Assembly (NCBI RefSeq): GCF_900141755.1
Contig: NZ_LT670844.1
Location: 2,852,001-2,916,000 of the forward strand
From: Bradyrhizobium lablabi
Lineage (GTDB): Bacteria; Pseudomonadota; Alphaproteobacteria; Rhizobiales; Xanthobacteraceae
DNA: 64,000 bases
Direction: 5' to 3'
Part shown: one piece after another, positions 5,371 to 33,855 of the stretch
Layout: each line of letters opens with the position of its first letter
How positions within the stretch are numbered: position 1 is the stretch's first letter
Notes under the pieces: model-generated
Database searches by the model: none
Told to the model about the DNA's origin: nothing
The model's input: only the letters and a program-made list of their open reading frames with translations
Made by a program: the position numbers and the translations under genes

Positions 5371-6453
5371 TTAGCACTTCACCCGCTTTTGCTCGCGATC
5401 GACGGCGGCTTTGACGCCGGTCGAGGCGCGCGGATATTTGCGCGTCACTTCGCCAAATGCGGCGCAGGCGGCTTCCTTTTCCTTTAGCGCCGCCAGCGAT
5501 TGCCCGAGCCGCAGCAGGGCATCGGGGGCCTTGCCTGATTTGTCGAATTTGGTGGTGACGCCGAGAAAGGTTTCGGCGGCATCGCGATATTGCTGGCGCT
5601 GGAAGAAGCTCTCGCCGAGCCAGTATTGCGAATCCGCGATCAGGGGATCGCTCGGGTATTTCTGCGCGAAGTCGCGCATGGTCTGTTCGGCGAGCGCATA
5701 GTCCTTGCGCTGCATATAGCCGATGCCGAGATCGAACTCGTCCTTCGGGGTTGCTGACGGCGGCAGGGTGGCAAGCGTCGTACCGCCGCCGCGTGGCGGC
5801 GGTAACCCGCCGGCTGGATTGCCGGCTGCGCCGGTATTGGCAAGATCGAGCGGCTCGCCTGCGCCGCGGCCGCCCGGCGCGCCGACGGGCGCCTCAGCGG
5901 GGATCGGAAGCTGACCGCCCCCGAGCGCGCGCGGCGCGCCCGGGGCGTTCGGGTTCTGGTTGGGATCGAAGGCATCGCCGCGGCGCCGCGCTTGCGCCGG
6001 CGGCACGCCCTGTGGCGCGCCAGGCGCTTCTTGCATGGTCGGCGCCGGAGCGGCGATCTGCGGCTGGTCAGACCCCGGCTGCCGATAGGTTGGATTGAGC
6101 TGCGCCGGCGGCGTCGCGGCTATATTGGGCTGGCCGACGACAGGTTGACCAACAACAGGCTGATTAACGAGAGGCTGATTAACGAGAGGCTGGCCGGCAA
6201 CAGGCTGGCCGGGGGCGCCAGGCTGACCGCCCTGGAGCTGCCGCAGGCGCTCCTCGAGCTGGCGGTTGCGGTATTGCAGTTCCTCGTTCTGGCCGGTGAG
6301 TTGCCGCAGCTGATTCTCAAGCTGCTGGATCCGCATTTCCGGGTCGGCGTCGTCGGATTGCGCCAGGGATTGCGCGGGCAACGCCTGCGACCACAGCGCC
6401 AGCAGCGCGGACAATGCCGCGGCACCGGCAATCCTATTAAATCTGAATGTCAT
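5371..6453 (-). CDS. cpoB: Cell division coordinator CpoB (YbgF), Tol-Pal associated
   Basis: Periplasmic protein that binds TolA and links outer-membrane constriction to peptidoglycan synthesis. A signal peptide (cleavage near LPAQS) leads to a coiled-coil with MRIQQLENQLRQLTGQNEEL. A long Pro/Gln/Gly-rich linker follows, then C-terminal TPR repeats such as FDLGIGYMQRKDYALAEQTM and DSQYWLGESFF. The 360-residue form begins at ATG 6453. ATG 6474 would add seven residues, and the open frame extends to 6603, but only the 6453 start puts a clean signal peptide first. It follows pal on the same strand behind a terminator-like hairpin. Confidence 0.92.
   Translation of the reverse strand: MTFRFNRIAGAAALSALLALWSQALPAQSLAQSDDADPEMRIQQLENQLRQLTGQNEELQYRNRQLEERLRQLQGGQPGAPGQPVAGQPLVNQPLVNQPVVGQPVVGQPNIAATPPAQLNPTYRQPGSDQPQIAAPAPTMQEAPGAPQGVPPAQARRRGDAFDPNQNPNAPGAPRALGGGQLPIPAEAPVGAPGGRGAGEPLDLANTGAAGNPAGGLPPPRGGGTTLATLPPSATPKDEFDLGIGYMQRKDYALAEQTMRDFAQKYPSDPLIADSQYWLGESFFQRQQYRDAAETFLGVTTKFDKSGKAPDALLRLGQSLAALKEKEAACAAFGEVTRKYPRASTGVKAAVDREQKRVKC
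6128..6217 (-). repeat. Six 15-nt tandem units in the CpoB linker
   Basis: Six consecutive 15-nt units, the two central ones identical, encode a pentapeptide series of the QPVVG/QPLVN type in the flexible linker of CpoB. The array keeps the frame, so unit number can change without disrupting the protein. Confidence 0.85.
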
Positions 6454-6550
6454 TTTGGCCTGACGATGTGACATCGAAAGCGGGAACACATTGAGAGAGG
6501 GAGTACGCCAAAAATGTGACTGAAACAAATAGCGCCTGGAGCTACGCCGC

Positions 6551-6580
6551 CAAAATAAAACCGGCGCCCGAAGGCGCCGG
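6551..6580 (-). terminator. Terminator hairpin between pal and cpoB
   Basis: On the minus strand an 8-bp perfect stem CCGGCGCC/GGCGCCGG encloses a TTCG tetraloop and is followed by TTTTATTTT. It is positioned 30 nt after the pal stop and upstream of cpoB, so it probably attenuates read-through and makes cpoB less abundant than Pal. Confidence 0.8.
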
Positions 6581-6609
6581 CAACAAACATTTGCGACCCG
6601 CAAACGCTC

Positions 6610-7098
6610 TTAGGAGTTGGCGTTCAGGACGGTAACCGCACGGCGGTTCTGCGACCAGCACGAGATGTCGTTGCAGACCGCGACCGGACGTTCCTTGCCG
6701 TAGGAGATGGTCCGCATCCTCGAGGGATCGATTCCGCGCGAGGCGAGGAAGGTACGAACCGACTGGGCGCGCCGGGCACCGAGCGCGATATTGTATTCGC
6801 GGGTGCCGCGCTCGTCGGCGTGGCCTTCGATGGTGAAGGAGTAGCGCGGATAGGTCTGCAGCCATTGCACCTGCTTGTCCAGGGTCACGACGGCCTGCGG
6901 GGACAAATCGGTCTGGTCGCTCTCGAAGAACACGCGGTCGCCGACATTGACCACGAAATCCTGCTGGCTGCCCGGAGTAGCCGCACTGGCCATCGCGTCG
7001 GCGCCGAGGTTCTTGTTGGCGCAGGCGCCCATCGACAGGGCCACCGCGAGCACCGCGGCCAGCTTCAATCCCTGGAGGATACGCATCTGGTATTTCAT
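6610..7098 (-). CDS. pal: Peptidoglycan-associated lipoprotein Pal
   Basis: Outer-membrane lipoprotein that anchors the membrane to peptidoglycan and is released by TolB during constriction. Of 162 residues, the first 25 form a lipoprotein signal with the acylated cysteine at about C26 (LSMGAC). The OmpA-like domain follows, with FFESDQTDLSPQA, the EGHADERGTREYNIALGARR peptidoglycan-binding core and SYGKERPV. GGAGG lies 6 nt before the ATG. It is separated from tolB by two signalling genes, which is unusual. Confidence 0.97.
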   Translation of the reverse strand: MKYQMRILQGLKLAAVLAVALSMGACANKNLGADAMASAATPGSQQDFVVNVGDRVFFESDQTDLSPQAVVTLDKQVQWLQTYPRYSFTIEGHADERGTREYNIALGARRAQSVRTFLASRGIDPSRMRTISYGKERPVAVCNDISCWSQNRRAVTVLNANS

Positions 7099-7440
7099 TC
7101 CGGAGCCTCCACGCTCACGTTATACGACTGTCATCCGGTCTACAGGGCGATGGTTAAGCGAACGTTCCGTCAACCTTGATGGGGTGTTGCCAGACCCGAT
7201 CAAATGCCGACAAACGCCGAAAAGCAACCGCGATAGTTAATGGGTTGTAAATGTGGCGCGAGGGTGAAGGCAAGCCGGGAGTCGGCCGGGGTCAGCGGTT
7301 TGGTATCGATTTAGATGCCGATCCCGCGGAAAAATGGGGGAGCCCGCAAAGCGGGCGGTGCCGGGAACAAGTGCTCAGGAAAAAGGCAAGCGGGCGGATT
7401 TGATCCGTGCCGTTGCCGAAAGTCGCGCTGGCCCGATCCG
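7099..7440. other. Intergenic region upstream of pal
   Basis: These 342 nt hold the pal leader and the 3' flank of the N-acyl synthase-like gene. Apart from the pal ribosome-binding site no promoter, hairpin or small gene could be supported. Short frames here lack family features. Confidence 0.4.
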
Positions 7441-8184
7441 TCAGGACCGCGGCACGATTGAGGCACGCTCGAAAGTGGATACGGTCGCACTCGGAGACGG
7501 CGAGCGGCGCTCGCCGCTCCGCTCAAACAACATTCGCCGTTCGAAAGCGGTCGAACGCATCATCGGATAGCGCTCAAAGACCTTCTCGCGCAACGCCGGA
7601 AAATCCGCAGCCATCAGCCCGACCGGCTTCAGGAGCCCCGGGAAGAAGCGTGGTTCCGCGATGCTCTCGTGCAGGAAGACGCGGCGATAAAACGCCTGAT
7701 GTTCGGCGCGAACGATGGCGAGCCCAAGGTCGGCGTTGAAATATTCGCACGCCATGTAGGCCAGGCGAAGCGTCACATAGGGCAGTTCGGGAAACCGCCC
7801 GGCCTTGTCTGGATCCGCCACGAACCGCGCCGGATCGACGATGACCTCGCCGCGATCGAGCCTGGGATAGAGAATCTCGCCAAAGGCCTCCGCCGAGCAG
7901 GACAACCGCCATTCGGAGGTCAGCACGCTGATCCGGACCGAGCTATAGAGTTCACCTTGCAGATAAACGCCAAATGTCCAGGAATTGGGCAGGTCATCAT
8001 ATTGATCGCTAACCCGCTGATCGGCGGATTCCGTGACCGCCCCCTCGCGCAGGTAGGCCCGGTAGCGAAGATGATAGATTTCTTCCTTTTCCTCGGGCGT
8101 CTGCGCCAGTCGATAGTCGACTTGATCCAGCAGGTCCAAACTCCGTCCAAGAGCCGAGGTGGACGCTTCGGCGGCGGACGCCAT
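7441..8184 (-). CDS. N-acyl amino acid synthase-like protein (FeeM/acyl-HSL synthase fold)
   Basis: A 247-residue soluble protein of the GNAT-like fold shared by autoinducer synthases and FeeM. FeeM-type enzymes transfer an acyl chain from acyl-carrier protein to an amino acid. Visible family features are the N-terminal YRLAQTPEEKEEIYHLRYRA, the FGVYLQGELYSSVRIS strand pair, VIVDPARFVADP and the helix LPYVTLRLAYMACEYFN followed by AIVRAEHQAFYRR. The start at 8184 has GGAG 6 nt upstream, and an earlier ATG at 8196 is possible. It lies 170 nt downstream of the GGDEF/EAL gene on the same strand. The substrate is unknown, and a general acetyltransferase role cannot be excluded. Confidence 0.7.
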   Translation of the reverse strand: MASAAEASTSALGRSLDLLDQVDYRLAQTPEEKEEIYHLRYRAYLREGAVTESADQRVSDQYDDLPNSWTFGVYLQGELYSSVRISVLTSEWRLSCSAEAFGEILYPRLDRGEVIVDPARFVADPDKAGRFPELPYVTLRLAYMACEYFNADLGLAIVRAEHQAFYRRVFLHESIAEPRFFPGLLKPVGLMAADFPALREKVFERYPMMRSTAFERRMLFERSGERRSPSPSATVSTFERASIVPRS

Positions 8185-8354
8185 GCGATACTCCATACAA
8201 CTTCCCAACAACTTCTACGCGCAGACAAAAACATTAACAGCTTCTTAACGAAGATGCAAAGGGATCGAAAGGTTAGGGTTAACCCCATACAACTACGGGT
8301 TGGCGGCACTGCGTCGAGACAAGTGCCCGCCGGCCAGGCTCCTTTGGAATTTTT

Positions 8355-10688
8355 TCAGGCGATCGAGCGTGACGGGACCGCGAGCAATTGCTCTTCGGAC
8401 AGATGGCGGCCGTGCGACGCATTGAGGAGCTGGCGTATCCGCACCGCCGGCACCGGGCGTGAGAACAGGTAGCCCTGCGCCTCGGTCACCGTGCCGTCGG
8501 CGCTGATCCGTTCCAATTGCTCGTTGGTCTCGATGCCCTCGACCACGACCGACATCCCGAGATCGGCCGAAAGCCGCGCCACGCCCCGCAACAGCGTCAG
8601 CGGGCGATCGCTGTCGATGCCTTCCAGGAAGGACCGATCGATCTTCACCTTCTGCAGCGGGAAATTGTGCAGATAGCTCAGGCTCGAATAGCCGGTGCCG
8701 AAATCGTCCAGCGAGATTTTCACCCCGATGGTGCGCAATTGGGACAACACGTCGTGGGTCAATTGGGTGTTGCGCAACAGCGAGGATTCGGTGATCTCGA
8801 TTTCAAGCCGGTGCGCCGACAGACCGGAGACCTCCAGCGCGTAGCGAACTTCGCTCAGCACGTCGCGCTGATGGAATTGCTGCGGCGAGAAATTCACCGC
8901 GACGCTGACGCCTTCCGGCCATTTCATGCATTCGATGCAGGCCTTGCGCAGGATCCAGCGGCCGAGATCGACGATCAGGCCCATATCCTCGGCGACCGGG
9001 ATGATATCGATCGGGGAAACCGTGCCGCGCACCGGATGATTCCATCGCAGCAGCGCTTCGCAGGTCGCGATGCGTCCGGTTTTGAGATTGACCAGCGGCT
9101 GATAGAACAGCTCGAATTCCTCGTTCGCCAGCGCCTTGCGCAGGTCTAGTTCCAGGATGCGGCGCGCCTCGACGGTTTGCGCCATCTCGTCGCGGAAGAA
9201 GCAGAAGGTTCCGCGGCCGTCCGCCTTGGCGCGATAAAGCGCCATGTCCGCGTTCTTCAACAGCGTGTCGGCAGAGACGCCGGGCAATGTCATGGCGATG
9301 CCGACGCTGGCGCCGATCTCGACCAGATGATTGTCGATCTTGTAGCGCTCGCTCAGATGATCGACGATTCGCTGGGCCAAATGGGCTGCTTCCTCGTTCG
9401 ATCTGATATTCTGCTGAAATACCACGAATTCGTCGCCGCCGAACCGCGCCACGAAATCCTCCGGGCGCAGCATGGCGCGAAGGCGGTCGGCGACGGCGCA
9501 TAGCAACTGGTCGCCGCAAGGATGGCCGAGCGTGTCGTTGACCTGCTTGAATTGATCGAGGTCGACAAACAATAGCGCCGACAATTGCTCGGCATCATGG
9601 GGCACCGCCAACAGGCGCTCGATCTCGTCGCGGAAATTGACCCGGTTCGGGAGCGCGGTCAGCTCGTCGTAGCGCGCCAAATGGGTAATTCTGGCTTCAG
9701 CGTTGCGCCGTTCGGTGATGTCCTCGAGCAGCACGACGGCGCCGCCATTGGCCATCGGCTGAAACGTCCATGACAGCGAACGGGCGCTGGCGGCGTCGGG
9801 ATCGGTGGTGATGATGTCCCTCGCCTGCGAATTCTCGATTTCCGAGCGAATGATCTTTCCGCTCGCCGCCGAGATCGATCCGCCGCTGACGCAGGCATCG
9901 ACGATGTCGGACGCGCAAGCACCGCGATGCACGAGATCATCCGACAGCTTCATCATCTCGCTGAAACGGTGGTTCATGACCGCAAGCCTCCCGTCGGCGG
10001 CGAACATGCAAAGGCCGTGAGGCATGTTGTTCAGGGCGGTGTCGAACTGGCCGGCAAGAGCCGCCTCCCTGAAGCTCGAGGTCAGCGCCTTTACGAAAAT
10101 GGCGTGCAGGCTGATGTTGATTTCTTTCAGGCCGATGAAGAACAGCATCAGCAGCGCGGCCAAGCCGATGTAGTAGAATCCGCCATGCAGCGCCAGCGCC
10201 AGCGACATTGGCCCGCAGGCGAAAAGAATATGCAATTGGATGAGCCTGGGGCGACCGTAATTGCGGGCGGCGCCGCCCGCGGTATAGCCGATCGTCACGG
10301 CCACGCAGAGCATGTGCGCGATCGGATCGTCGCTGCCGAGAATGGTGATGAAGCACCAGGCGCCAAGTACGCCGGCGTAGACAATGGCGCCGATCGCGTA
10401 GCGCGGCTCCAGATATTTCGCCTGCTCGAACGTCAGCACTGACGTGCGCCGTTCGTAGCGGCGCATATGGAACGCGCGTACGGTACCGATTGCAACGATC
10501 AGGACGGCGCACGGCCAGAGCAGAACATTTCCGGTCTTGAGCGCCGTCATCAGGGCGGCGGCTCCGGCGCAGAACGTGCCGATAAGCATGGGCCAGAAAT
10601 TCTGGCACATGGAATCGACCAGCGCTGCATAAAGCACCGGCTCCAGTTCTTCCTGGCTGCTTCGCTCTTTCTGATCGACCAACTGCAT
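8355..10688 (-). CDS. Membrane GGDEF/EAL protein with PAS-like sensor (c-di-GMP turnover)
   Basis: A 777-residue regulator with five or so N-terminal membrane segments (about 31-190) and a PAS-like region at 212-325 (ALNNMPHGLCMFAADGRLAVMN). The diguanylate cyclase domain has the intact active site GGDEF at 417-421 and the inhibitory RxxD site (RPED, 408-411). The phosphodiesterase domain has EALLRWNHP at 544-552 and DDFGTGYSSLSYL, so both halves look catalytically competent. Net activity cannot be predicted. It is encoded between tolB and the N-acyl synthase-like gene. Confidence 0.93.
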   Translation of the reverse strand: MQLVDQKERSSQEELEPVLYAALVDSMCQNFWPMLIGTFCAGAAALMTALKTGNVLLWPCAVLIVAIGTVRAFHMRRYERRTSVLTFEQAKYLEPRYAIGAIVYAGVLGAWCFITILGSDDPIAHMLCVAVTIGYTAGGAARNYGRPRLIQLHILFACGPMSLALALHGGFYYIGLAALLMLFFIGLKEINISLHAIFVKALTSSFREAALAGQFDTALNNMPHGLCMFAADGRLAVMNHRFSEMMKLSDDLVHRGACASDIVDACVSGGSISAASGKIIRSEIENSQARDIITTDPDAASARSLSWTFQPMANGGAVVLLEDITERRNAEARITHLARYDELTALPNRVNFRDEIERLLAVPHDAEQLSALLFVDLDQFKQVNDTLGHPCGDQLLCAVADRLRAMLRPEDFVARFGGDEFVVFQQNIRSNEEAAHLAQRIVDHLSERYKIDNHLVEIGASVGIAMTLPGVSADTLLKNADMALYRAKADGRGTFCFFRDEMAQTVEARRILELDLRKALANEEFELFYQPLVNLKTGRIATCEALLRWNHPVRGTVSPIDIIPVAEDMGLIVDLGRWILRKACIECMKWPEGVSVAVNFSPQQFHQRDVLSEVRYALEVSGLSAHRLEIEITESSLLRNTQLTHDVLSQLRTIGVKISLDDFGTGYSSLSYLHNFPLQKVKIDRSFLEGIDSDRPLTLLRGVARLSADLGMSVVVEGIETNEQLERISADGTVTEAQGYLFSRPVPAVRIRQLLNASHGRHLSEEQLLAVPSRSIA

Positions 10689-10859
10689 CGGGGGCGCAAA
10701 CGTCCTCTTCGAGCCCGTACTTTTAACCGTCGCAGATGAAGTCTTTCTGAGGGAACATCGTTACCAGGACGTTGTCTGCCGTCCTGCAGGACTAAAATCC
10801 GCCCGATAAATCAGCAGGCTAGGCAAGGTTTGCCGAGTTTGGGACAGCGTGCCGCGGGC

Positions 10860-12251
10860 TCACGACAATAGCGGCGACCACGCCGGATCGGAGGCGAAGC
10901 CGGGCGTTGGAACGCGCTGTTCGTTGCGTCCGGAAATGTCCACAGTGAACAGCGACGGCCCGCTGTTGCCTCCGGGATCGCGGAAGAACATCAGGACGCG
11001 GCCGTTCGGCGCAAACGTCGGTCCCTCGTTGTGGAATCCGGAGGTGAGAATCCGCTCGCCCGAACCGTCCGGCTTCATGATGCCGATGGAGAATTGTCCG
11101 CCGCCCTGTTTGGTGAAGGCGATGTAATCGCCGCGCGGCGACCACACCGGGGTCGAGTAGCTGCCGCCGTCGCCTTCGTCCTTGGTGAAGGAGATGCGCT
11201 GCGCCGGACCGCCGGTTGCCGGCATCACGTAGATCTGCGGCTTGCCGCCGCGGTCGGATTCGAAGCAGATGCGGCTGCCGTCGGGCGAATAGGACGGCGA
11301 AGTATCGATCGCCGGCGTATCGGTCAATCGCGTGGTCGATTTCGAACGCAGGTCCATCACGAACAGGTTCGAATTGCCGCCCTGCTGCAGGCTCATGATG
11401 ACGCGCTGGCCATCGGGCGAGAAGCGCGGCGAGAACGACATGCCGGGAAAATTGCCGACGATCTCGCGCTGCCCGGTCTCGATATTGAACAGATAGACCC
11501 GCGGGTCGCCCTGGCCGAATTCCATATAGGTGATTTCCTGGGTCGACGGCGAGAACCGCGGCGTCAGCACGAGGTCCGAGCCGCGCGTCAGATAGCGGAC
11601 ATTGGCGCCATCCTGATCCATCAGCGCCAGCCGCTTGATGCGGTGTTCCTTAGGGCCACTTTCGTCGACGAACACCACGCGGCTGTCGAAATAGCCTTTT
11701 TCTCCAGTCAGGCGCTCATAGATCTGGTCGGAGATGATGTGCGCGATCCGCCGCCAGTATTCCGGAGCGGTGAAGTATTGCTGGCCGGTGAGCTGCTGGC
11801 CGGCGGCCACATCCCACAAGCGGAACTCGGCCTTCAGGCGGCCATCGGGTTGACGGGTCATGCGGCCGGTAACCAGCGCCTGGGCGTTGATGGTCTTCCA
11901 GTTCTGGAATTGCGGCGCGACGTCGATATTGCTGATCTTTTCGATGAAAGCCGCCTGGTCGATCGGCGCAAACAGTCCGCTGCGCTTGAGGTTGTTGGTG
12001 ATGACCTGGGCGACGCCAGCGCTGACCTCGCTGTCCGCCGGCGATCCCGGAACAAAATTCGGGATCGCGATCGGAACGGCCTGAGTGCCGCCGGGGACAA
12101 CCTCAAGCCGCTGCTGCGGGGCCTGTGCCGATAGTGCTGTCGGCCGAACCATTCCCAACAACGCCAGGGCACCGCCGGCCATTGTGAAAGCACGTCGGGA
12201 AATCGCTGATGACAGGCCGGGCATCGAATTGTCGCGAAACGGACGAAACAT
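10860..12251 (-). CDS. tolB: Tol-Pal system beta-propeller protein TolB
   Basis: Periplasmic protein that competes with peptidoglycan for Pal and is pulled off by TolA. The 463-residue product has a signal peptide with a twin-arginine-like stretch ([17 protein letters not shown]). An N-terminal alpha/beta domain follows ([19 protein letters not shown]), then a six-bladed propeller with repeated SPDG-type turns such as [12 protein letters not shown] and [11 protein letters not shown]. The open frame reaches 12431. The ATG at 12251 is chosen because it lies 1 nt past the tolA stop and starts the signal peptide. Confidence 0.97.
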
Positions 12252-13679: not shown

Positions 13680-14393
<714 letters not shown>

Positions 14394-14739
14394 AAGCGGG
14401 TTCCTCTCAACGCCAGTGTCCCAGATCCTCCGGAAGCAAAATGGCTGCCGGTTCCACAGCCACGCGACGCGCGCGGCAGCAGGCGCTCGCGCTAAAGCCT
14501 TGATGTGTCACATGGGAGGCCCGTCCAAAGCCGAGGCCTGCTTCCCCTGCCAACATGTCAAAACGAGGGCTATGAGCGCGACTTTACGCCCCTAACCAGA
14601 CGCTAATCATGGTTAACGCCAGGTTACCACAGGGGATTTTGGCAGCGGGAATCAAGGTAATCCGGGCGGTTAGGGGAGCCGGGCTAGTTTCCCCGGGGGT
14701 TCCCAGGCGTGCCCCGCCCGTCAATCCTGAAAAAGGATA

Positions 14740-15363
14740 CAAGTCTACCTTCTCGCGACGCCATGAGCCCGAGGTTTGCGAGAGCCTTGTCCCTCTGAAG
14801 ACAGAGGGCGCAGGGAAAGCCGGATGCCCGATGCACCCGCAGCCCGTGTGCATTGGTAGTAAGCACACGGTAGTCACCACGAGTACGCCGGAAATCACCC
14901 GGCTTTCCCCGCGCAATGGTTTTAACGGTTTCCTTCGTGCTCTCCCCGGCGACGAATTCCTTTTTGTCACCGTCGCCTCGCGGATTACGATTTGTCTAAG
15001 CCCGGTTGGGCCGACGCATCTCTGCGAGGCTTGACATCAGCAACGGATGCCAGGACCACACGACTTCGCCGTACGCAGCGACCTTGCCAAACGCATCGAC
15101 AGGCCATGTGCCGCCGACCGAGGCTTTGGCGAAGGCGTTGAAGCGCCGTTCGTCCGCGCGCTGGCTGTTCGCTCACAGATCATAAGACCTGCCCTGCGAC
15201 TCCACGCGCGCCCGACGCTGCCGCGTCCACCGCATCCCACCGCACGTTCGTGACGATCGCGAGCCGCCCCTCTTTCGGGTGAGACGGGCAAGCTTGTAGA
15301 GATGATTTGCCCGACGGGTTAAGCGGAATATTTTTCGCAAGCGATCTGGACAGGGCAAATCAG
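14740..15363. repeat. Structured repeat, copy 1 (long form)
   Basis: About 620 nt that recur at 60525-61016 and, truncated, at 28262-28404. Nested hairpins include CCCTCT/AGAGGG and a 16-bp stem formed by 14808-14823 with 14899-14914. The latter encloses CCGTGTGC/GCACACGG and the loop TAGTCACCACG. A conserved block containing CGCAATGGTTTTAACGG and a distal block containing GACGATCGCGAGCCGCCCC follow. Frames through it are translation artefacts: their products mirror the repeat rather than a protein family. Confidence 0.8.
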
Positions 15364-15508
15364 CTTGATGCGGCAGGCGAATTTTCTTTCGAGGCGCAAC
15401 GCCGTGGCCGGCCGCAACGTCATGCGAGCGAACGGCCGGAGGCGGGCATTGATCCGTCCTTCGAGCCGGATATGCTCCGAATGGCCCGAGCTTGCAAAAG
15501 GTCCGTCG

Positions 15509-15535
15509 AACGTAGAGATCGTGGATTATCATTGA
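15509..15535 (+). pseudogene. Possible 3' end of a HigB toxin gene
   Basis: Eight codons NVEIVDYH followed by TGA match the typical VDYxDYH-like C-terminus of HigB/RelE toxins and stand 14 nt before higA, where higB normally ends. The rest of the toxin is not recognisable upstream, where the structured repeat begins. The match is short, so this remains a suggestion. Confidence 0.35.
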
Positions 15536-15549
15536 CTGGAAAGACGACG

Positions 15550-15852
15550 ATGCCCCGCCCCGCAATTCATCCCGGCGAGATTCTCGCCGACGAACTGAAC
15601 GAACTCGAGATCACGCCGACCGAGCTGTCGCGTCAGATTTCCGTGCCGCCGAACCGCATCTCGCAGATCATTCAGGGCAAGCGTGCGATTACCGGCGATA
15701 CCGCGCTCCGTCTCGGACACTGGTTCCAGACCAGCCCTCAATTCTGGCTCAATCTTCAATCCGCCTACGATCTGCGCCTCGCAGATGATGCGATCGGACG
15801 CGAGGTCGCAGCACTTCCGACCAAACCGGAAAGACGCCGCGCCGGCGCATAA
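15550..15852 (+). CDS. higA: HigA-family antitoxin (XRE helix-turn-helix)
   Basis: A 100-residue protein with the HigA opening MPRPAIHPGEILADELNE and the helix-turn-helix ITPTELSRQISVPPNRISQI, followed by the family motifs GKRAITGDTALRLGHWF and SPQFWLNLQ. HigA represses its operon and neutralises the mRNA-cleaving HigB. GGAAAG lies 7 nt before the ATG. The upstream toxin gene appears to be missing. The open frame extends to 15307 through repeat sequence, but homology starts only at 15550. Confidence 0.93.
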   Translation: MPRPAIHPGEILADELNELEITPTELSRQISVPPNRISQIIQGKRAITGDTALRLGHWFQTSPQFWLNLQSAYDLRLADDAIGREVAALPTKPERRRAGA

Positions 15853-15855
15853 AGC

Positions 15856-15925
15856 AAACCGCCCGTCTGCTGATCGCAAACGGGCGGTTTGTTGCTATCA
15901 GGCTCTATGACGGCACATCGCCTGA
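15856..15925 (+). terminator. Terminator hairpin after higA, part of a repeated element (copy A)
   Basis: AAACCGCCCGT and ACGGGCGGTTT form an 11-bp stem, starting 4 nt after the higA stop. The hairpin and the next 35 nt (ending near CGCCTGAGG) are closely repeated at 21008-21078. The element could terminate transcription from either side. Confidence 0.7.
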
Positions 15926-16264
15926 GGCTGTCGAAATTACTTCTGCTTTGGGGGCATGGCGGACGTGGCCATACTTGCTGCTGGCTCGCCCCGGTCGCCA
16001 GAGAGGGCTGGGCGCAGAACCCTGGAAAGATATATCGAGTGGGCGTGGTGGTTGTCCTCCCGCCGAATCTTCTCCCGCCTAATGGTCCGCGGCCGTCGTT
16101 TCCAGGGGGTCCGCTGGGCCGCGCGCTTCTGGATCGGCTGGCCGACCACGGCTACGGGGCTGGGTGAGCGCAGCGAGTAGAGCCTGACCGGCGAAGCCGG
16201 ACGCGCCTGATTCCGAAACTTCTCTCATTCCACTTTTGGTTGATTCTCTTTATTGTCGCCGATC
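15926..16264. other. Non-coding or degenerate stretch before the DUF3800 gene
   Basis: No intact gene. One plus-strand frame contains REGWAQNPGKIYRVGVVV followed later by LDRLADHGYGAG. This faintly resembles the signal-peptide junction and first helix of a family of ABC binding proteins, so it may be a decayed fragment. Evidence is too weak to call a pseudogene. Confidence 0.3.
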
Positions 16265-17437
16265 ATGTCCGAGATTCTAGACATTTCATGTGATGAAGCC
16301 GGCCATACTGGACCTGACCTTCTCCAGAAGGATCAGCGGATGTTTGCTTTCGGTTCGGTCGCAATCAGCGACGCAGAAGCCTTCGAAATCATTCGGAAGG
16401 TGCGCGCGGACCATCCTGTGCAGATGCCTGAGCTCAAGGCATCCAAGCTTCTCGCAACGGAACGTGGGCGAAAGCTTGTGGCCGCGCTGTTCAGTGCTAT
16501 GGACGGTCGATACGTCGTTAGCGTCAACGACAAGCTCCTGGCGCTCTGCGGATGGTTCTTCGAGTACATCTACGAGCCAGTCTACCAGGACAATCCGCGA
16601 CTTCTCTATCAGAAGAATTTCCACCGCTTCATTGCGATGTATTCCTATCTTTGGATGACCGATCCGAGCAGCGACGCGAGGCGCGCAATCGAGCAATTTC
16701 AAAAATACATGCGCTCGCGCGATCCTGCTGATGCGCCATTCCTCTTTGATAACCCGCGCCCTCCGCTTTCCGACGCGGGGACCGAACACCCGTTCGAATC
16801 CGTCCTGCGTTTTGCCTATGGATACCGTGACATCATTACGGCCGACAACGCCCGACTTGATGTTGTCCTTCCTGATCAAGCGCGCTGGGTTCTCGACCTT
16901 TCGGCCGCAGCTTTGTGGAGTCATCTCAACCACTGGGGCCGCACCGGAAAACTGCTGTCGGTGCGGTGCGATTCAAGCAAGCCGCTTCAGGCGATCGCTT
17001 CGAAATTCACCGGCGACGATAACGACCCTGGAATCCACCAAGCGCGCATGAAACACAACCCGGAGCCGCTAGGCTGGAAGCTTCTCGAACCTGTCGCTTT
17101 TGTGGACTCGCGCGATCACCCCGCAATTCAGCTCGCGGACGTGGTCGCGGGAACGACGGTAGCTCTATTCACAGACGGCCTGCCCGGATGCGACGTTATC
17201 GTCGAGAGCATCAGCCGCCATGGTCATCCCCATTCCATTCTGCCGGACATGGAGGTGGTTGATCCGGCGACCCGCGCCGCCGCTGTCAACGCTCTGATGG
17301 TTTATGACCTCGCCAAGCGAGCGGAGCGGCACGGCGACCCCTATGAAAACCTTGAAGCGATGTATCGTTTTGCCGATGTGAGCTGGGTCAGGGGCGATTT
17401 CGAACTCATTAAAAGCGGGCGTAATCCGGCCGGTTGA
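16265..17437 (+). CDS. DUF3800 protein (predicted RNase H-like fold)
   Basis: A 390-residue protein starting MSEILDISCDEAGHTG. DUF3800 proteins carry an N-terminal D-E pair and a distal QLAD motif that fit an RNase H-like metal site. Here these are CDEAGHTG (9-16) and HPAIQLADVVAGTTVAL (about 285-301). FAFGSVAI and a middle SRDPADAPFLFDN region are also seen. A TTG at 16253 could extend it by four residues. It faces the second DUF3800 gene tail to tail across 22 nt. The biochemical activity of the family is not established, and members are often found in defence or mobile contexts. Confidence 0.8.
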   Translation: MSEILDISCDEAGHTGPDLLQKDQRMFAFGSVAISDAEAFEIIRKVRADHPVQMPELKASKLLATERGRKLVAALFSAMDGRYVVSVNDKLLALCGWFFEYIYEPVYQDNPRLLYQKNFHRFIAMYSYLWMTDPSSDARRAIEQFQKYMRSRDPADAPFLFDNPRPPLSDAGTEHPFESVLRFAYGYRDIITADNARLDVVLPDQARWVLDLSAAALWSHLNHWGRTGKLLSVRCDSSKPLQAIASKFTGDDNDPGIHQARMKHNPEPLGWKLLEPVAFVDSRDHPAIQLADVVAGTTVALFTDGLPGCDVIVESISRHGHPHSILPDMEVVDPATRAAAVNALMVYDLAKRAERHGDPYENLEAMYRFADVSWVRGDFELIKSGRNPAG

Positions 17438-17459
17438 CGGCGGCTGCGACCGACGTCGT

Positions 17460-18623
17460 CTAGGACTTCATCGGGGGGGCGTAGGTACCATCCTGGAAGC
17501 CCAGGAATAGATCTAGCTTGTCGAGATCGTGCATGCTGGAGACATGATTCAGGAAGGCAATGTTGGCATCGTGCGAAGCAGCAAGAAGATCGCGAAGTAG
17601 CTCCGAATTCTGCAGGCTAGTGCCAGTCAAGTTCGCTCGATCCGCAGCCACCTCGTCCCGTGGCGTTTCGGTGAAGTAGCTGTGCATCTTGCCTAGCACT
17701 CCCACGACGATATCGGCGAGCTGGATGCCGGGCTCGGCTTTGGAGTCCGCAAAGCGATAATGCATGACCGGTTCGCCGCCCCTGGTGAGGGGCGTTTTCA
17801 GGAAACGGTCCTGGATCGACTCCTCCATGTCCAGGACATGGGTGGCGTGTTTGAATATGGCAATGCGGCCCAAGTAGAAGGTGCTGAAGTCGTCAATCAG
17901 CATGTTGGGCGGATAGCCTTCAATGAAGTCGAGGCTGTCGAGCCCTCGTCCAGACTTGAGCACGCCCTTCAGCATGGTTGCATTGAGCGCCGGCAGCACA
18001 GCGCTATTGTGCTCCAGCAGGGCGACGAGTTCATTCAGGAACGGCTTACGACTTTCGGGGGTCAAGCCAGGATAGCCGTAGTGATGGAATAGGCCGATCG
18101 TGGCCGGAAGATCACTCCTCAGCACCGCAGCCAGGTCGCTCTTCAGCAGCGCATGGTATTGGAACAGGACGGGATCGCGGAGCTTGGGTAGAATCGAATC
18201 GACGATGTCGACAATCGACCAATAGAGCGGGTCAAGTTCATGGTAGTGAATCATTAGCCTGTTGTCGGTGATCCAGCGCAAGAACGTGGTCAGCTTGGCA
18301 GAGCGCAATAGCTCCAGAAAATCGCCTTTCGCGACGTGCTCAAGTTTGATTTCGCGGGCCGTCTTCTGAATTTGCATGGCCGCCCGCAAAGGCTGAACGT
18401 CTATGGGGCGCGGCGCACCGTCATGCACCACGCCGCCCAAGACGAATACCTTCAATTCGGCGACGTTTAGGCCGTGAGCGGCGACATGCAGCTTGCGGAT
18501 ATTGTTCGTCTCATCGTGATAGAATGTATAGCTCTCATTGGCCTTGGTGAGCCCGTACAGCCTTATTTGAGACTCTCTAAACTCATCGATATCAACCAAA
18601 AAGCATCCCCGAGCTTCAGTCAC
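17460..18623 (-). CDS. Second, divergent DUF3800-like protein
   Basis: A 387-residue protein. Its N-terminal YTFYHDETNNIRKLHV and C-terminal SKAEPGIQLADIVVGVLGK match the two ends of the DUF3800 signature. The two DUF3800 proteins here share little beyond these motifs, so they are not a recent duplication. The frame opens with GTG at 18623. TTG eight codons in has a better-placed GGGGA, so the start is uncertain. It follows the TIR gene on the same strand after 96 nt, suggesting co-transcription. Confidence 0.72.
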   Translation of the reverse strand: MTEARGCFLVDIDEFRESQIRLYGLTKANESYTFYHDETNNIRKLHVAAHGLNVAELKVFVLGGVVHDGAPRPIDVQPLRAAMQIQKTAREIKLEHVAKGDFLELLRSAKLTTFLRWITDNRLMIHYHELDPLYWSIVDIVDSILPKLRDPVLFQYHALLKSDLAAVLRSDLPATIGLFHHYGYPGLTPESRKPFLNELVALLEHNSAVLPALNATMLKGVLKSGRGLDSLDFIEGYPPNMLIDDFSTFYLGRIAIFKHATHVLDMEESIQDRFLKTPLTRGGEPVMHYRFADSKAEPGIQLADIVVGVLGKMHSYFTETPRDEVAADRANLTGTSLQNSELLRDLLAASHDANIAFLNHVSSMHDLDKLDLFLGFQDGTYAPPMKS

Positions 18624-18719
18624 TCCCGAATGTACAGAATGTTTGCACGTGGCGACCCAGTACTATCCATCTCCTGGGTATGTGAGGTAGTAGAGGGCTT
18701 GCGCGCACTGCGGTGCTAG

Positions 18720-19574
18720 TTACGGCTCAGTGATTGCGTTGTACAGTTTTCGAACGACTTCAGCTTCCCCCAGTTGTTCCCAATTGAGACCGACCTTGTC
18801 AGCGAGGCTCGGTGAATACTCATACACCTGTCGAGCTGAAACGTTATGCCATACGGGCAGCACCACAGAACGTTGCTCCAAAATCTCTCGTGTGAATACC
18901 GAGTTAAACTCCACCTTTGTCCATCCGCCATTGGAAATGAAATTCGGACTCAGAATCAATACGCATTTTTTGGTCTCTTTCAAACCCTTCTCAATGCTTT
19001 CGCGAAGGCTATCGCCTACCTTGAGAGAATATTCATCGTACCAAACGTGGCACATAAGTTTTTGTAGTCCGATCGTAATCGGGAGCGCAATGTCCGTCTT
19101 GTCTCTGCTGTCATGAGAGATGAAAGCCATCGGTTTTTCGAGCTCGATTTTCGTCTTCATGTACTGCTGCCCCCTCACGGTTAGCCATAGCATTTTCTGC
19201 TTACACAACGCGTCTAACGCCGGGTCGGGCGCATCATCTACGACATCATCAGAATAGATATAGACACGATTAGAGAAGGGCGAATTGTCAGACCCTATCA
19301 AGCCATATTGAACGTCACCACCAAATGACGAAAGAGTCCTGATGCCATTTGATTGGGTTACAGCCTCATCCACGCTGTTCACCAACGATTCGAAAATCTG
19401 CAGAAAGTGTGCGTGATGTGGAACCCAATAGGCGACAAATTTCGCCGACGAATAAGTCTCGGTTCCCACCTTCACATCGATGTCGATCGGATTCGGGCCA
19501 GTCGTTTTCCAAGAAAAAAAGAAGGTCAGGGCGTTCGCAAAATCCGTCTGAAAATATTCTTTGAGAGTCGCCAC
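18720..19574 (-). CDS. TIR-domain protein with unassigned N-terminal domain
   Basis: A 284-residue protein. The C-terminal half (about 148-284) is a TIR domain with FISHDSRDK (151-159), WYDEYSLKVGDSLRESIEKG (178-197), the strand CVLILSPNF and GGWTKVEF. E192 or E195 is the likely NADase glutamate by position. The N-terminal 145 residues (MATLKEYFQTDFANALTF) form a separate domain I cannot name. Bacterial TIR domains commonly cleave NAD or make signalling nucleotides in anti-phage defence. Base composition looks AT-richer than the surroundings, consistent with transfer. There is no membrane segment. Confidence 0.85.
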   Translation of the reverse strand: MATLKEYFQTDFANALTFFFSWKTTGPNPIDIDVKVGTETYSSAKFVAYWVPHHAHFLQIFESLVNSVDEAVTQSNGIRTLSSFGGDVQYGLIGSDNSPFSNRVYIYSDDVVDDAPDPALDALCKQKMLWLTVRGQQYMKTKIELEKPMAFISHDSRDKTDIALPITIGLQKLMCHVWYDEYSLKVGDSLRESIEKGLKETKKCVLILSPNFISNGGWTKVEFNSVFTREILEQRSVVLPVWHNVSARQVYEYSPSLADKVGLNWEQLGEAEVVRKLYNAITEP

Positions 19575-20005
19575 CGATTACCTCGCCAAGCAAAGCACAA
19601 TCCATCGTAGCACGCGCAAAGTGTCTCACCCAATCGAAAAAGCATTTCCTCTATTTCCACCACACCAAACCCGTCCTTCTCTTTCGACGATTTAGCACCA
19701 TTCGTCGGCTGAATGGCTGCAAGTGCTTCCGCCTTCGCCAAGGCTGCGGCGGACGGGGACGCACTCCTTCTCTGTGTTCCGGTCGCAGGCGATGTACCCG
19801 CCGTCTCCGGCGGAAGGCCTCCGTCAGAAGGCCGCGATTGGCGCGGTCGAAACGCGCTCTGGGTCCCAAGGAAGACTCTCGGCGGCAGCGTCTTCTCACA
19901 TCCTTCAGAGCCCACGGCAATCATTGGCGATCGACATTCCGCGGATGGCGCCTCGTCGAGTGCGCCATCCGCACCTGCAATCGGTCTCTTACGAAGAAAC
20001 AAGCC
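19575..20005. other. Intergenic stretch between TIR and cupin genes
   Basis: No gene was recognised in these 431 nt. Overlapping short frames on both strands have no family features. The promoter of the TIR gene should lie near 19600, but no clear -35/-10 pair stands out. Confidence 0.4.
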
Positions 20006-20413
20006 TTAAGCCTTCAGGTCCGTGATCCGCATGATCGCGACCCCGCTCCCATCGTTGTACGCCTGCTCTTTTGTGTCCTTGTTGCAGGTCCAGACAAAGT
20101 TCTTCTTGGCCGTAAAGGTCTTTCCCTCCTGCTCGATCCGAAGCTCCCCCTCGGGGATATGGCAGATCATGGCATTCATCATCGGGGGGCCGGCTGTCTT
20201 CGATCCCGGCTGCATAATGACATCGCGCATTGAGACGGTCTTAAAACCGGGGATGATGGATGGTGTCTCGCCATCGTAAGCACGCACCACGACACCGGGC
20301 CACGGCGTCGTGTCCTTGTAGCCCGTGGTTTGAGCGGCGGCTGGCTTCATGATGGCCACCGTAGCCGCTGCCAACCCGATTCCCAATGCTGACCTTCGAT
20401 CGATCTTGTTCAT
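20006..20413 (-). CDS. Exported cupin-like protein
   Basis: A 135-residue product with the N-terminus MNKIDRRSALGIGLAAATV, a twin-arginine-type export signal cleaved near PAAAQ. A small beta-rich domain follows: MRDVIMQPGSKTAGPPMMN, then ICHIPEGELRIEQEGKTFTA and FVWTCNKDTKEQAYN. The pattern fits a cupin barrel with only part of the metal-binding histidines. The function is unknown. It shares its strand with the TIR gene, but 431 nt separate them. Confidence 0.6.
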   Translation of the reverse strand: MNKIDRRSALGIGLAAATVAIMKPAAAQTTGYKDTTPWPGVVVRAYDGETPSIIPGFKTVSMRDVIMQPGSKTAGPPMMNAMICHIPEGELRIEQEGKTFTAKKNFVWTCNKDTKEQAYNDGSGVAIMRITDLKA

Positions 20414-21002
20414 CGCTTTTCTCCTGACGTTACGCGACGAGCCGCCGCAGAAGCGGCGCGCGCATTTCGTGGAATGTGAATGGTGGTGCGAACCGAAAAA
20501 AGCATCGGTCTCTCAAGAGAGCGTGCCTGCCGATGGCATCAGTGCTGCTCGTTCGCCCCGGACGGCGATTTCGGCTGTCCCGTTTCAAGGGCAACTACAT
20601 TGTACGCGACCTGACGCGCCTGAGAAACAGCATCAAAAATGCACAATGTCTCAAATTGGTTAGAGCCTGTGACGGAAGACGGGACCCGGTGTCGGCAGCT
20701 TCACTCCGGCCATAGCGGGTCAGCGTGACTGACCGGCCCCGCGGCTCGGTCGGCGGTAAGTGCGCCGCCACGACCCGATTGGAGTCCCGTCCGGAGGCGA
20801 CGACTGCGGTCCCAGAATGTCCGGATTTGGCACATCGCGACGTCTCTCCGCGCTATAGAATTTGGTCACTGTCGGGCTATAGCGGACATCGATCAAGCCG
20901 CGCCAATTAAAGCTTGATTTGAGAACGCGCCCTAGGCCCAGCCCTGATTCAATCAGAACCGAACAGGCTCGGGCCCGGCCTTGACGGAACGCCCGCTGCA
21001 CA
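20414..21002. other. Long intergenic stretch
   Basis: About 590 nt without a supportable gene. Several short frames exist on both strands, but none has a ribosome-binding site plus recognisable protein features. It may include decayed coding sequence. Confidence 0.4.
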
Positions 21003-21078
21003 AAACAAAACCGCCCGTCTGCTCATCGCAAACGGGCGGTCATCGCCGTCAGGTTTTGTGGGGGCACGCGGCCTGAAG
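21003..21078 (-). terminator. Terminator hairpin after the DUF2852 gene (copy B of the higA-terminator element)
   Basis: On the minus strand ACCGCCCGT/ACGGGCGGT plus flanking bases forms a stem followed by TTTTGTTTTG, about 70 nt past the DUF2852 stop. The hairpin with its side sequence is the near-copy of 15856-15925. Together they bracket the HigA-distal/TIR/DUF3800/cupin segment. Confidence 0.7.
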
Positions 21079-21109
21079 GCGTTGGCCTTCCGGTCTCAGG
21101 CTTGGGATC

Positions 21110-21592
21110 TCAGGCTTGCGGCTGGCCGTCCTGGGGCGGCGGGGTCGGGCGTGTGCGGTGCTGCGCCATGAACTGGTCGAACTCTTCCTTGTCCTTGGCG
21201 TGACGCAGCCGGTCGAGGAATGCCTTGAACTCGGTCTGCTCTTCTTCGAGACGCCGCAAGGTTTCCATGCGGTATTCGTCGAAGGCGCGGTTGCCGCTGG
21301 TGGGCGGGCCGAACGGGAAACCGCGGCGCTCCATGCGGTCGCGCATCCGCTCCATCTTGTACTGCATGCGCTCCATCTTGTTCGAGAAGCGGTCCCCGTT
21401 GCTCCAGCAAGCCATTTTTCTGCTCCCGAGTGTGAAAAAGAGAAGGGCGAGGCCGATCGGCCACCAGATGATGAAGCCGAGCACGGTCACGGCGATCCAG
21501 CCGGGGTGCCAGGGTGAATCGAGCATATGCGGGCGGTAGTGGGGCTCTTCAGCGGGGCCGCGCCAGCGATTGACATCTGCGGTGTAGGCCAT
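21110..21592 (-). CDS. DUF2852 small membrane protein
   Basis: A 160-residue protein. It has one strong membrane segment, GWIAVTVLGFIIWWPIGLAL (about 31-50). A very basic amphipathic region follows (NKMERMQYKMERMRDRMERR) and then a charged helix (LRRLEEEQTEFKAFLDRLR) likely to form a coiled coil. This is the DUF2852 arrangement common in Rhizobiales, and its function is unknown. The ATG at 21592 is preceded by GAGAGG, while upstream in-frame ATGs at 21604 and 21655 lack one. A perfect inverted repeat lies 34 nt upstream. Confidence 0.8.
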   Translation of the reverse strand: MAYTADVNRWRGPAEEPHYRPHMLDSPWHPGWIAVTVLGFIIWWPIGLALLFFTLGSRKMACWSNGDRFSNKMERMQYKMERMRDRMERRGFPFGPPTSGNRAFDEYRMETLRRLEEEQTEFKAFLDRLRHAKDKEEFDQFMAQHRTRPTPPPQDGQPQA

Positions 21593-32585: not shown

Positions 32586-33855
32586 ACCACTGTCCGGTTC
32601 GATTTTTGTAGACAGGGTGCATGACGAGGATTCTTCTGTGTTTTGAGCGCTTCGCACACGTTCGAGACACCGAAGGAGGTCCACGCCATGCGGCATCAGA
32701 ATAGCGTATTTCACAGTCTAACAAAGCACGTTCCTTGGTCTAAGTTCGAACAGATCGTGGAGAAGTACGGGGCCGACCGGCTGGTGCGGAAATTGACGAC
32801 GAAGCGTCAGTTCATCGCATTGCTGTACGGGCAATTGAGCGGCTCGACGAGCCTGCGGGAGGTCGTGACCGGGATGGCGAGCCACGAGACGCGGCTTTAT
32901 CACGTGGGGGCGGCGCCGGTGAAGCGTTCGACGATGTCGGACGCCAATTCGACGCGGCCTTGGCAAGTGTTCAGCGAGCTGTTCGCGCAGATGCTGCCGC
33001 AAGCGCATCGTGGGCTGCGGCGCGCGACGGCAGACGCGGTCCGGCTCATTGATTCCACCAGTGTTCGGCTCTCCAGCCTGAGCGAAGGCTGGGCGACATT
33101 TTCGGCCGATGTGTTCGGCGCCAAGGCGCATATCGTCTACGATCCGAATGCCGATCGGCCGGTTTACTTTGCGGTGACGCCCGCTAACGTCAACGACATC
33201 ACAGCCGCCAAGGCGATGCCGATCGAGCCGGGCGCAACCTACGTCTACGACCTCGGTTATTACGATTATGGCTGGTGGGCGCGGCTCGATGACGCCGGCT
33301 GCCGCTTCGTGACGCGACTGAAGAAGAATACCCCGTTCAGCGTGGTAAAGGAGAACCGCGTCCCCAAAAACAGCAATATTCTGCGCGACCGCATCGGTCA
33401 TTTGCCGGCCCGGCTCGCCAACAGCCGCAAAAATCCGCTGCAAGTTCCGGTCCGAGAGATCACCGTGATCATCGACACCGGTAAGCTGTTGCGCATCGTG
33501 ACCAATGATATCGACGCGCCGGCAGAAGAGATCGCAGAGCTTTACAAACAGCGCTGGCAGATCGAATTGTTCTTTCGCTGGGTCAAGCAGACGCTTCGAA
33601 TCAGGCACTTCATCGGTGTCTCCGAGAATGCCGTCCGCATTCAGATCGCCATCGCCCTGATCGCCTTTCTCATCTTGCGCATGGCCCAGCTGGCTCAAAA
33701 AGCGGTGCACAGCCCTCTCGAATTTGCCCGCCTCGTCCGCACCAACCTCATGCACAGACGCCCGATCAACCATTTGCTCGAACCCCTACAGCCGATCCCG
33801 ATAAACCCCGATCAGTTGAAACTTGGACTATACTTCCAATGAACCGGACAGTGGT
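32586..33855 (+). mobile_element. IS4-family insertion sequence, intact
   Basis: About 1.27 kb bounded by inverted repeats ACCACTGTCCGGTTC and GAACCGGACAGTGGT (perfect over 15 nt, 18 including flank). The 11-nt direct repeat GGGACAAGCCC stands on each side (32575-32585 and 33856-33866), the expected target duplication. One transposase gene fills it. The right terminal repeat supplies the transposase stop codon. The exact boundary could shift by 1-2 nt, because target and termini share bases. Confidence 0.88.
32688..33842 (+). CDS. IS4-family transposase
   Basis: A 384-residue DDE transposase. An N-terminal helical domain (DUF4372-like: FHSLTKHVPWSKFEQIVEKY) precedes the catalytic core. Its first aspartate is in LIDSTSVRLS, the second in VYDLGYYDYGWW and the glutamate in YKQRWQIELFFRWVKQ, the IS4 Y-(2)-R-(3)-E-(6)-K signature. 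All three are intact and there is no frameshift, so the element may be active. The start at 32688 fits the conserved N-terminus. Confidence 0.95.
   Translation: MRHQNSVFHSLTKHVPWSKFEQIVEKYGADRLVRKLTTKRQFIALLYGQLSGSTSLREVVTGMASHETRLYHVGAAPVKRSTMSDANSTRPWQVFSELFAQMLPQAHRGLRRATADAVRLIDSTSVRLSSLSEGWATFSADVFGAKAHIVYDPNADRPVYFAVTPANVNDITAAKAMPIEPGATYVYDLGYYDYGWWARLDDAGCRFVTRLKKNTPFSVVKENRVPKNSNILRDRIGHLPARLANSRKNPLQVPVREITVIIDTGKLLRIVTNDIDAPAEEIAELYKQRWQIELFFRWVKQTLRIRHFIGVSENAVRIQIAIALIAFLILRMAQLAQKAVHSPLEFARLVRTNLMHRRPINHLLEPLQPIPINPDQLKLGLYFQ

Follow-up and report, generated by a model that had tools for sequence, protein, structure and literature searches.

A two-domain TIR gene and a convergent DUF3800 gene pair as putative separate modules in an acquired stretch of Bradyrhizobium lablabi

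In the 64 000 nt stretch of the Bradyrhizobium lablabi genome analysed here (the window), a TIR-domain gene lies beside two genes of the DUF3800 family, D1 and D2. Do these three genes form a single defence system, as the initial annotation proposed? The locus is better explained, with a probability of about 0.68, as an accretion patch resembling a defence island and holding at least two independent modules, namely a two-domain NADase-type TIR protein and a DUF3800 pair. The tempting three-gene system, which is unsupported, is thereby set apart from two leads that hold. One is a two-domain TIR family, encoded by a single gene near virion genes in three phage-like contigs; the other consists of two dissimilar DUF3800 genes in convergent orientation, the junction of which is conserved in another genome (G093). 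In addition, the residue to target by mutation is corrected to E222.

Gene arrangement and the acquired stretch

ORF and Pfam analysis places D1 on the plus strand (16265–17437; 390 aa, or 394 aa from an alternative TTG start at 16253) and D2 on the minus strand (17460–18623; at most 387 aa). The D2 start is perhaps near 18599, as a copy in the database (P0121) is 379 aa long and the majority of the homologues listed begin at around residues 9–11. The TIR gene (18720–19574, minus strand) has a GTG start and encodes 284 aa, comprising an N-terminal domain and a C-terminal TIR domain. Both DUF3800 proteins exceed the 21-bit gathering cut-off of PF12686 (39.1 bits for D1, 25.9 for D2), and the TIR protein scores 51.4 against a cut-off of 28 for TIR_2. 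Genome-wide (7.91 Mb), there are a single TIR_2 match and two DUF3800 matches, all within 3.3 kb at this locus. The ORF coordinates bear out the arrangement originally described, in which TIR and D2 are co-directional and D1 is tail to tail with D2. The similarity between D1 and D2 is confined to one 39-residue stretch (38% identity), and they were therefore correctly termed sequence-distinct; the TIR gene was also rightly described as AT-richer, since its GC content (47.5%) is below that of D2 (55.8%), D1 (57.2%) and the window (61.5%). TIR and D2 are about 96–120 nt apart on a common strand and could be co-transcribed.

Comparison with a relative (G018) reveals a stretch of 6.35 kb (14648–21001) that is present here and replaced there by about 50 bp. 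A 38-nt hairpin direct repeat is located at 15851–15888 on the plus strand (RNA fold of 15851–15895, z −7.1), and a second copy, 92% identical, at 21003–21040 on the same strand; D1, D2 and TIR all lie between the two, and the 29-nt hairpin core has only these two occurrences in the genome. By eye, a diverged hairpin copy is visible at the right-copy spot of the empty site in G018. To the left of the left hairpin is a gene encoding an HTH_3 protein, read as HigA type (15553–15852, plus strand), a neighbour outside the TIR and DUF3800 modules. Eight proteins were considered at the tolQ site in relatives; Pfam identified a peptidase, an acetyltransferase, two glutamyltranspeptidases and a desaturase, and three were unmatched. 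These matches do not establish the tolQ site as a defence hotspot.

Putative active sites of the TIR and DUF3800 proteins

The TIR domain (18723–19136, minus strand; residues 147–284) is close to AbTir, BtpA and PdTIR. It contains a W218-x3-E222 motif (18909–18923, minus strand), in which E222 aligns with E208, described as the catalytic residue of AbTir (PMC10022894). On this alignment E222, the counterpart of E208, is the predicted catalytic glutamate, and not E192 or E195, the candidates of the initial annotation, at which positions AbTir has Q and D. The active site itself is able to form, as the initial annotation presupposed: W218 and E222 are invariant across all 78 homologues of the thinned set, and the structure model, with a mean pLDDT of 90.1, confidently predicts two domains. 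The protein combines the TIR fold and W-x3-E motif of the AbTir class of TIR NADases, and the best reading is of a putative NADase-type enzyme with its own N-terminal domain. That domain (19137–19574, minus strand; residues 1–146) has a conserved MATLxEYFxTDF start, matches no Pfam model and is probably a sensor. In this first module, the N-terminal domain would sense an infection cue, and the assembled TIR domain, by analogy with AbTir, would then cleave or cyclise NAD+ via E222, halting the cell.

DUF3800 has been reported as an RNase H-fold family (PMC10910872, PMC12669027), in keeping with the RNase H-like character suggested for D1 and D2 at the outset. Acidic positions DE, ExK and QxxD are common to the two families, and are represented by D10-E11, E56-x-K58 and Q289-x-x-D292 in D1 and by D37-E38, E91-x-K93 and Q301-x-x-D304 in D2; conservation is 97% or higher across the 70 sequences of D1 type and 74 of D2 type that remained after thinning at 85% identity. 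These positions may constitute the DUF3800 active site. Taking the fold from the literature and the acidic motifs from sequence, D1 and D2 are probably paired RNase H-fold nucleases. The second module would be a tail-to-tail pair of metal nucleases, and this pair can also occur without TIR. Searching PDB sequences with D1 and D2 gave no match better than E 0.23, and no TPR family was matched in either protein (Pfam). Rfam detected no RNA at gathering score in the window; between 14400 and 21200, at E ≤ 5, two weak matches to other families were obtained. An RNA partner for the DUF3800 proteins was thus considered and none was found in the Rfam search.

Distribution, neighbourhoods and rival explanations

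Were the three genes a single abortive-infection system, phage sensing would lead to a TIR nucleotide signal or NAD+ drain, with the DUF3800 pair as nuclease arm. The gathering of the only such matches of the genome into one hairpin-bracketed stretch, with TIR and D2 on one strand, would be consistent with this. Their distribution argues against it. Among 265 genomes of the genus, including that of the window (G000), the TIR family with the N-terminal domain is present in five and D2 in 23, and both are present in the window's genome only; this N-terminal-domain test took in 30 of the 44 genomes with TIR hits, the matches in the other 14 starting at residue 141 or later. D1 hits occur in eight of the 265 and overlap with D2 solely in the window's genome (about 0.7 expected). 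One genome (G074) encodes the two-domain TIR and also gives a weak DUF3800 hit of D1-like type, the two being on separate contigs of a draft assembly. Any TIR hit coincides with any D2 hit in six of 265 genomes, with no clear excess over the 3.8 or so expected (44 × 23/265). In the five of these six other than the window's genome, no TIR match begins before residue 140; in G036 the TIR hit and a D2 fragment are separated by about 17 kb, and in G045, G052, G082 and G182 TIR and D2 are on different contigs. Any TIR hit accompanies D1 in three of 265 genomes (G000, G074 and G112; about 1.3 expected).

In the order sample, searched with a loose first look that may miss distant copies, D2 was found in two of 382 genomes, both of the window's genus (E ≤ 1e-20), TIR in five of 382 (E ≤ 1e-12), with the N-terminal domain in the window only, and D1 in eight of 397 including the window, mostly as weak or partial hits. 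At ten sites of the two-domain TIR elsewhere (G178, G041, G074, G156, L002, L003, L004, L110, L111 and L112), no D1 or D2 profile match was present in the stretches examined, some of them short. Contig sizes were also compared among the best 120 hits per list, from the listed sizes alone, copied by hand. TIR and D2 relatives have no size of at least 3 kb in common; the two sizes that do coincide are 1694 and 2030, where about one coincidence would be expected. TIR and D1 relatives share 3807 and 1649; the listed sources for 3807 differ, and this is therefore likely to be a coincidence. The closest TIR relatives (80–97% identical) are known as listed proteins only (jgi or lgn), and TIR–D2 pairing may exist among them.

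D1 and D2, by contrast with the three-gene grouping, seem to recur together. A DNA block covering D2, the D1–D2 gap and the end of D1 (17321–18616) is 79% identical in G093 (L077) and ends at the D2 start, before TIR; the D1 end there is decayed, and was missed by the D1 search of the 265 genomes. Contig sizes common to D1 and D2 relatives, again among the best 120 hits per list, are 25036, 14097, 3183 and 1016, the last being too small for both proteins and therefore a coincidence; two sizes of at least 10 kb are shared, where about 0.03 would be expected. Within the genus, the majority of D2 copies lack an adjoining D1. The basis of the pairing is one genome, the contig-size coincidences and one loose plasmid case. 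No recurrent TIR and DUF3800 neighbourhood was found, and co-occurrence in related genomes does not exceed chance, the outcome that the initial annotation itself named as refuting; the cassette that it envisaged is rejected on the separate distributions and the G093 block.

The interpretation in the initial annotation is supported in part: a single TIR and DUF3800 system is unsupported, but some relatives of each gene adjoin defence genes (two of six TIR sites and two of five D2 sites, chosen neighbours scanned with PADLOC). The TIR relative of G074 adjoins DarT and DarG (DarTG) and that of G041 an AbiTii-like gene; the chosen neighbours at four further TIR sites gave no PADLOC match. Full-length TIR relatives are found on three viral contigs, next to a major head gene in L111, a tape-measure gene in L112 and an unclassified gene in L110, with an integrase and a terminase further on. 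Matches to TIR numbered six in phage records and 150 on plasmids, none covering >80% of the query, and no close D1 or D2 relative was confirmed on viral contigs. D2 directly follows two small genes in all six of the loci L080–L085, a common arrangement in non-independent loci. In L080 the small genes are of HigB and HigA type (Pfam), and a 231-aa ORF, GajA and a UvrD-type gene come next.

The genes might instead be mainly selfish stabilisers of mobile DNA, akin to addiction modules. D2 relatives do occur on plasmids, where 65 of the 147 records with a match are typed as conjugative, and beside toxin–antitoxin-type genes, and a HigA-type gene adjoins the present locus. However, an antitoxin partner was recognised for none of the three genes, and both the neighbours of relatives (Gabija, DarTG, AbiTii-like) and the TIR copies carried by phages point to defence; we consider the selfish reading unlikely. 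Slightly less likely still is that the acquired genes are silent or inactive remnants. Relatives are often broken, with only partial D2 matches in 12 of the 23 D2-hit genomes, D1 broken off after residue 42 in G256 and an internal deletion in the TIR of G156, but here the three ORFs are full length and retain the family-conserved motifs. The three-gene abortive-infection system ranks below both and is improbable. It would be more surprising again if the hairpin-bracketed 5.1 kb (15889–21002) were mobile as a unit, and the TIR protein, with a catalytically dead restriction-endonuclease-like N-terminal sensor, made an NAD-derived signal activating the DUF3800 nuclease pair, in a Thoeris-like logic. 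In the favoured reading of separate modules, the two adjoin because both are within the same 5–6 kb acquired stretch. The presence together of the genome's only TIR_2 and DUF3800 matches was counted against separate modules, and a functional link would explain it too.

Comparison with known systems

Likeness to the TIR-retron (NF042941) and to RT-TIR type XII is limited to TIR residues 112/116 to 267/269, which match the end of these profiles only, at 77.1 bits against an NCBIfam equivalog cut-off of 600. The TIR half also matches PADLOC profiles of Thoeris ThsB (best E 2.9e-27) over residues 150–277 only; none of the three proteins matches the ThsA profile, and a search for STALD (PF18185) gave no match in the genome, nor in 14 control genomes. 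DUF3800 proteins tied to CRISPR types V-A2 and VI-F and to ncRNAs belong to the same Pfam family as D1 and D2, with an RNase H fold reported in the two papers cited above; the present pair differs in that no TPR family was matched in either protein and Rfam gave no hit at its gathering score anywhere in the window.

The candidate PADLOC family PDC-S66 resembles the TIR half (residues 146–281, E 1.1e-43), but only profile positions 147–280 of 282 are covered and the N-terminal 145 residues are unmatched, so that the protein does not match the whole profile. Relative to the AbTir, BtpA (TcpB) and PdTIR class, compared over the TIR domain, the present protein adds an N-terminal domain particular to its family, which has a start of MATLxEYF type. 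The candidate family PDC-S51 is matched by D2 over near full length (residues 11–376 of 387, E 1.5e-104); in the present locus, D2 is tail to tail with another DUF3800 gene, D1, the product of which matches PDC-S51 over 39 residues only.

Three genes within an acquired stretch

The three genes described by the initial annotation are borne out, since ORFs D1 (16265-17437, forward strand), D2 (17460-18623, reverse strand) and TIR (18720-19574, reverse strand) were found and their Pfam families agree: DUF3800 for D1 and D2 and TIR_2 for TIR, all above the cut-off. The locus is a genuine acquired region in a genome of 7.91 Mb, carried on a single contig of which the window covers positions 2852001-2916000. 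The GC fraction of the TIR gene is 0.475, compared with 0.615 for the window. D1 and D2, which face each other tail to tail, have in common only a 39-residue local match (38%).

Nearby is a gene that we take to be tolQ (13680-14393); this name, like that of ruvB, comes from reading translations and not from a family search. In the relative G018, 402 bp separate the tolQ homologue from the homologue of a 181-aa ORF at 21110; alignment blocks between the two genomes stop at 14647 and restart at 21002, with approximately 50 bp between them in G018. A homologue of the 21110 ORF is present within the examined stretch upstream of tolQ in nine of 11 relatives, at distances of 402 to 7522 bp, and absent from that region in two. 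D1, D2 and TIR were detected at the tolQ site in none of the 11 (filter E 1e-10, identity >45%).

Two copies of a 38-nt hairpin, 92% identical, are situated at 15851-15888 and 21003-21040. The RNA fold has a z score of -7.1, the 29-nt core occurs genome-wide only at these two sites (three or fewer mismatches allowed), and a diverged hairpin, judged by eye, is present at the right-hand spot in G018. The hairpin is probably a resident terminator; D1, D2, TIR and a 135-aa ORF without a Pfam match (20006-20413) are thus bracketed by two copies of a probable terminator. Pfam identified no recombinase among the five larger proteins scanned within and beside the stretch.

An HTH_3 gene lies within 15200-15852; we read it as HigA-type, and the sequence just upstream looks like the end of a disrupted HigB-type gene. 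Between the genes read as tolQ and ruvB there are approximately 28 kb (14393-42546), in which the order of several genes is kept in nine of the 11 relatives examined. A 399-aa ORF at 32643-33842 resembles an IS4-type transposase.

Distribution of the two-domain TIR family

A search with the whole TIR protein over 2646 candidates gave 1787 matches with E <= 0.001, of which the best 120 are listed; for many of the 1787, similarity may extend over the TIR half alone. Among the matches listed, the closest relatives (97, 87 and 87%) are under jgi or lgn only. Some TIR match is present in 44 of 265 genus genomes. Among the 30 of these 44 whose loci were examined, the N-terminal domain (residues 1-146) is found in the window's genome (G000), G178, G041, G074 and G156. 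In the G156 copy (L037, 9326-10012), which is one open frame, positions 12-82 of the TIR profile are missing; the catalytic motif is lost with them, and the N-terminal domain is retained.

Ten chosen neighbours at six sites were scanned with PADLOC. In G074, TIR is accompanied by DarT and DarG and by a gene that weakly matches ZorA, and in G041 by an AbiTii-like gene; the chosen neighbours at L034, L003, L110 and L004 gave no matches. Full-length TIR relatives are encoded on three viral contigs, and the TIR domain alone on a fourth. These three relatives, each a single gene, lie at L111 4949-5863, L112 1-915 and L110 31-876; they adjoin, respectively, a major head protein gene, a tape-measure gene and an unclassified gene beyond which there are an integrase and a terminase. 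Such genes would look as expected of single-gene prophage defence cargo.

Pairing of D1 and D2, and their separation from TIR

The proposal that TIR and the two DUF3800 proteins form one defence cassette is unsupported. A D1- or D2-type profile match was seen at none of ten other two-domain TIR sites (stretches of about 6 to 20 kb, several contigs ending near the gene), and no TIR profile match lies within the 19.9 kb examined around the D1/D2 block of G093. No literature joining DUF3800 with a TIR domain and defence was found among the matches listed, where coverage is thin. The leads that remain are the phage-borne family of two-domain TIR proteins and the convergent pair of DUF3800 genes.

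In G093, window 17321-18616 aligns as a single 1302-column block (79%) comprising D2, the short spacer between the genes and the last part of D1, a gene that is broken in G093; the block stops at the D2 start. Adjoining it are genes for a 1314-aa CHAT-domain protein and two uncharacterised genes (L077, 2868-9160), none with a PADLOC match. Overall, eight of the 265 genomes of the genus have D1 (three near full length, window included) and 23 have D2 (11 near full length, window included, and 12 partial); the near full-length copy in G182 contains a stop. No D1 match was found beside the other near-full-length D2 copies in the stretches examined, and the D1-D2 pair is therefore not the rule for D2. 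Contig sizes 25036 and 14097 are common to D1 and D2 relatives among the matches listed, with about 0.03 expected at sizes of at least 10 kb. On pLA4 of Novosphingobium pentaromativorans, a D2-type gene faces another DUF3800 gene, with an HU gene between; this lends loose support to the pairing, because the likeness of that other DUF3800 gene to D1 is distant (E 3.4e-17).

The D1 copy in G256 (L093, 7923-8232) is cut after residue 42 and is 90% identical before the cut; the sequence beyond resembles a transposase. In G189 the D2 relative (L089, 8866-11531) is in two parts about 1.5 kb apart.

At all six loci that share one layout (L080-L085), D2 is directly 3' of two small genes, which in L080 encode an HTH_37 protein and a Gp49 of HigB type. 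Downstream in L080 are a 231-aa ORF, GajA and a UvrD-type gene, and 5390-11320 of this locus is a compact defence island. Ten neighbours of D2, chosen from five loci, were scanned with PADLOC, and matches came only from L080 (GajA) and L078 (PDC-M68B). Abortive-infection or AbiEii-type genes are near D2-type genes on two of four plasmids examined (pLA4 and p172_1). Both D1-type plasmids examined have an adjoining integrase; on one of them QatC and QatD are also close by.

Putative functions and likeness to known systems

From its sequence, TIR is predicted to be an NAD-consuming enzyme, with a probability of roughly three in four. A phage cue would act on the N-terminal domain, the TIR domains could then assemble, and NAD+ would be consumed or converted, so that growth stops.

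D1 and D2 are somewhat more likely than not to be nucleases working together, perhaps as a heteromer, and could target foreign RNA, DNA or hybrids. D-E, E-x-K and Q-x-x-D are conserved at 97% or more in both families and may fit a metal-dependent site. Sequence comparison of D1 and D2 with solved structures gave no match below E 0.23. PMC10910872 gives, from a prediction, an RNase H fold for DUF3800 in TPR-DUF3800 proteins beside one branch of Cas12a2, and links DUF3800 to putative ncRNAs; Rfam RNA families of DUF3800 are listed in PMC11701678. No Rfam family reached the gathering score in the window, and relaxing the threshold over 14400-21200 turned up two matches, both weak and both to other families.

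Among known systems, likeness to the PDC-S66, ThsB and TIR-retron profiles is confined to the part of the window TIR protein from about residue 112-150 onwards. D2 resembles the PADLOC candidate PDC-S51 over nearly its whole length (E 1.5e-104).
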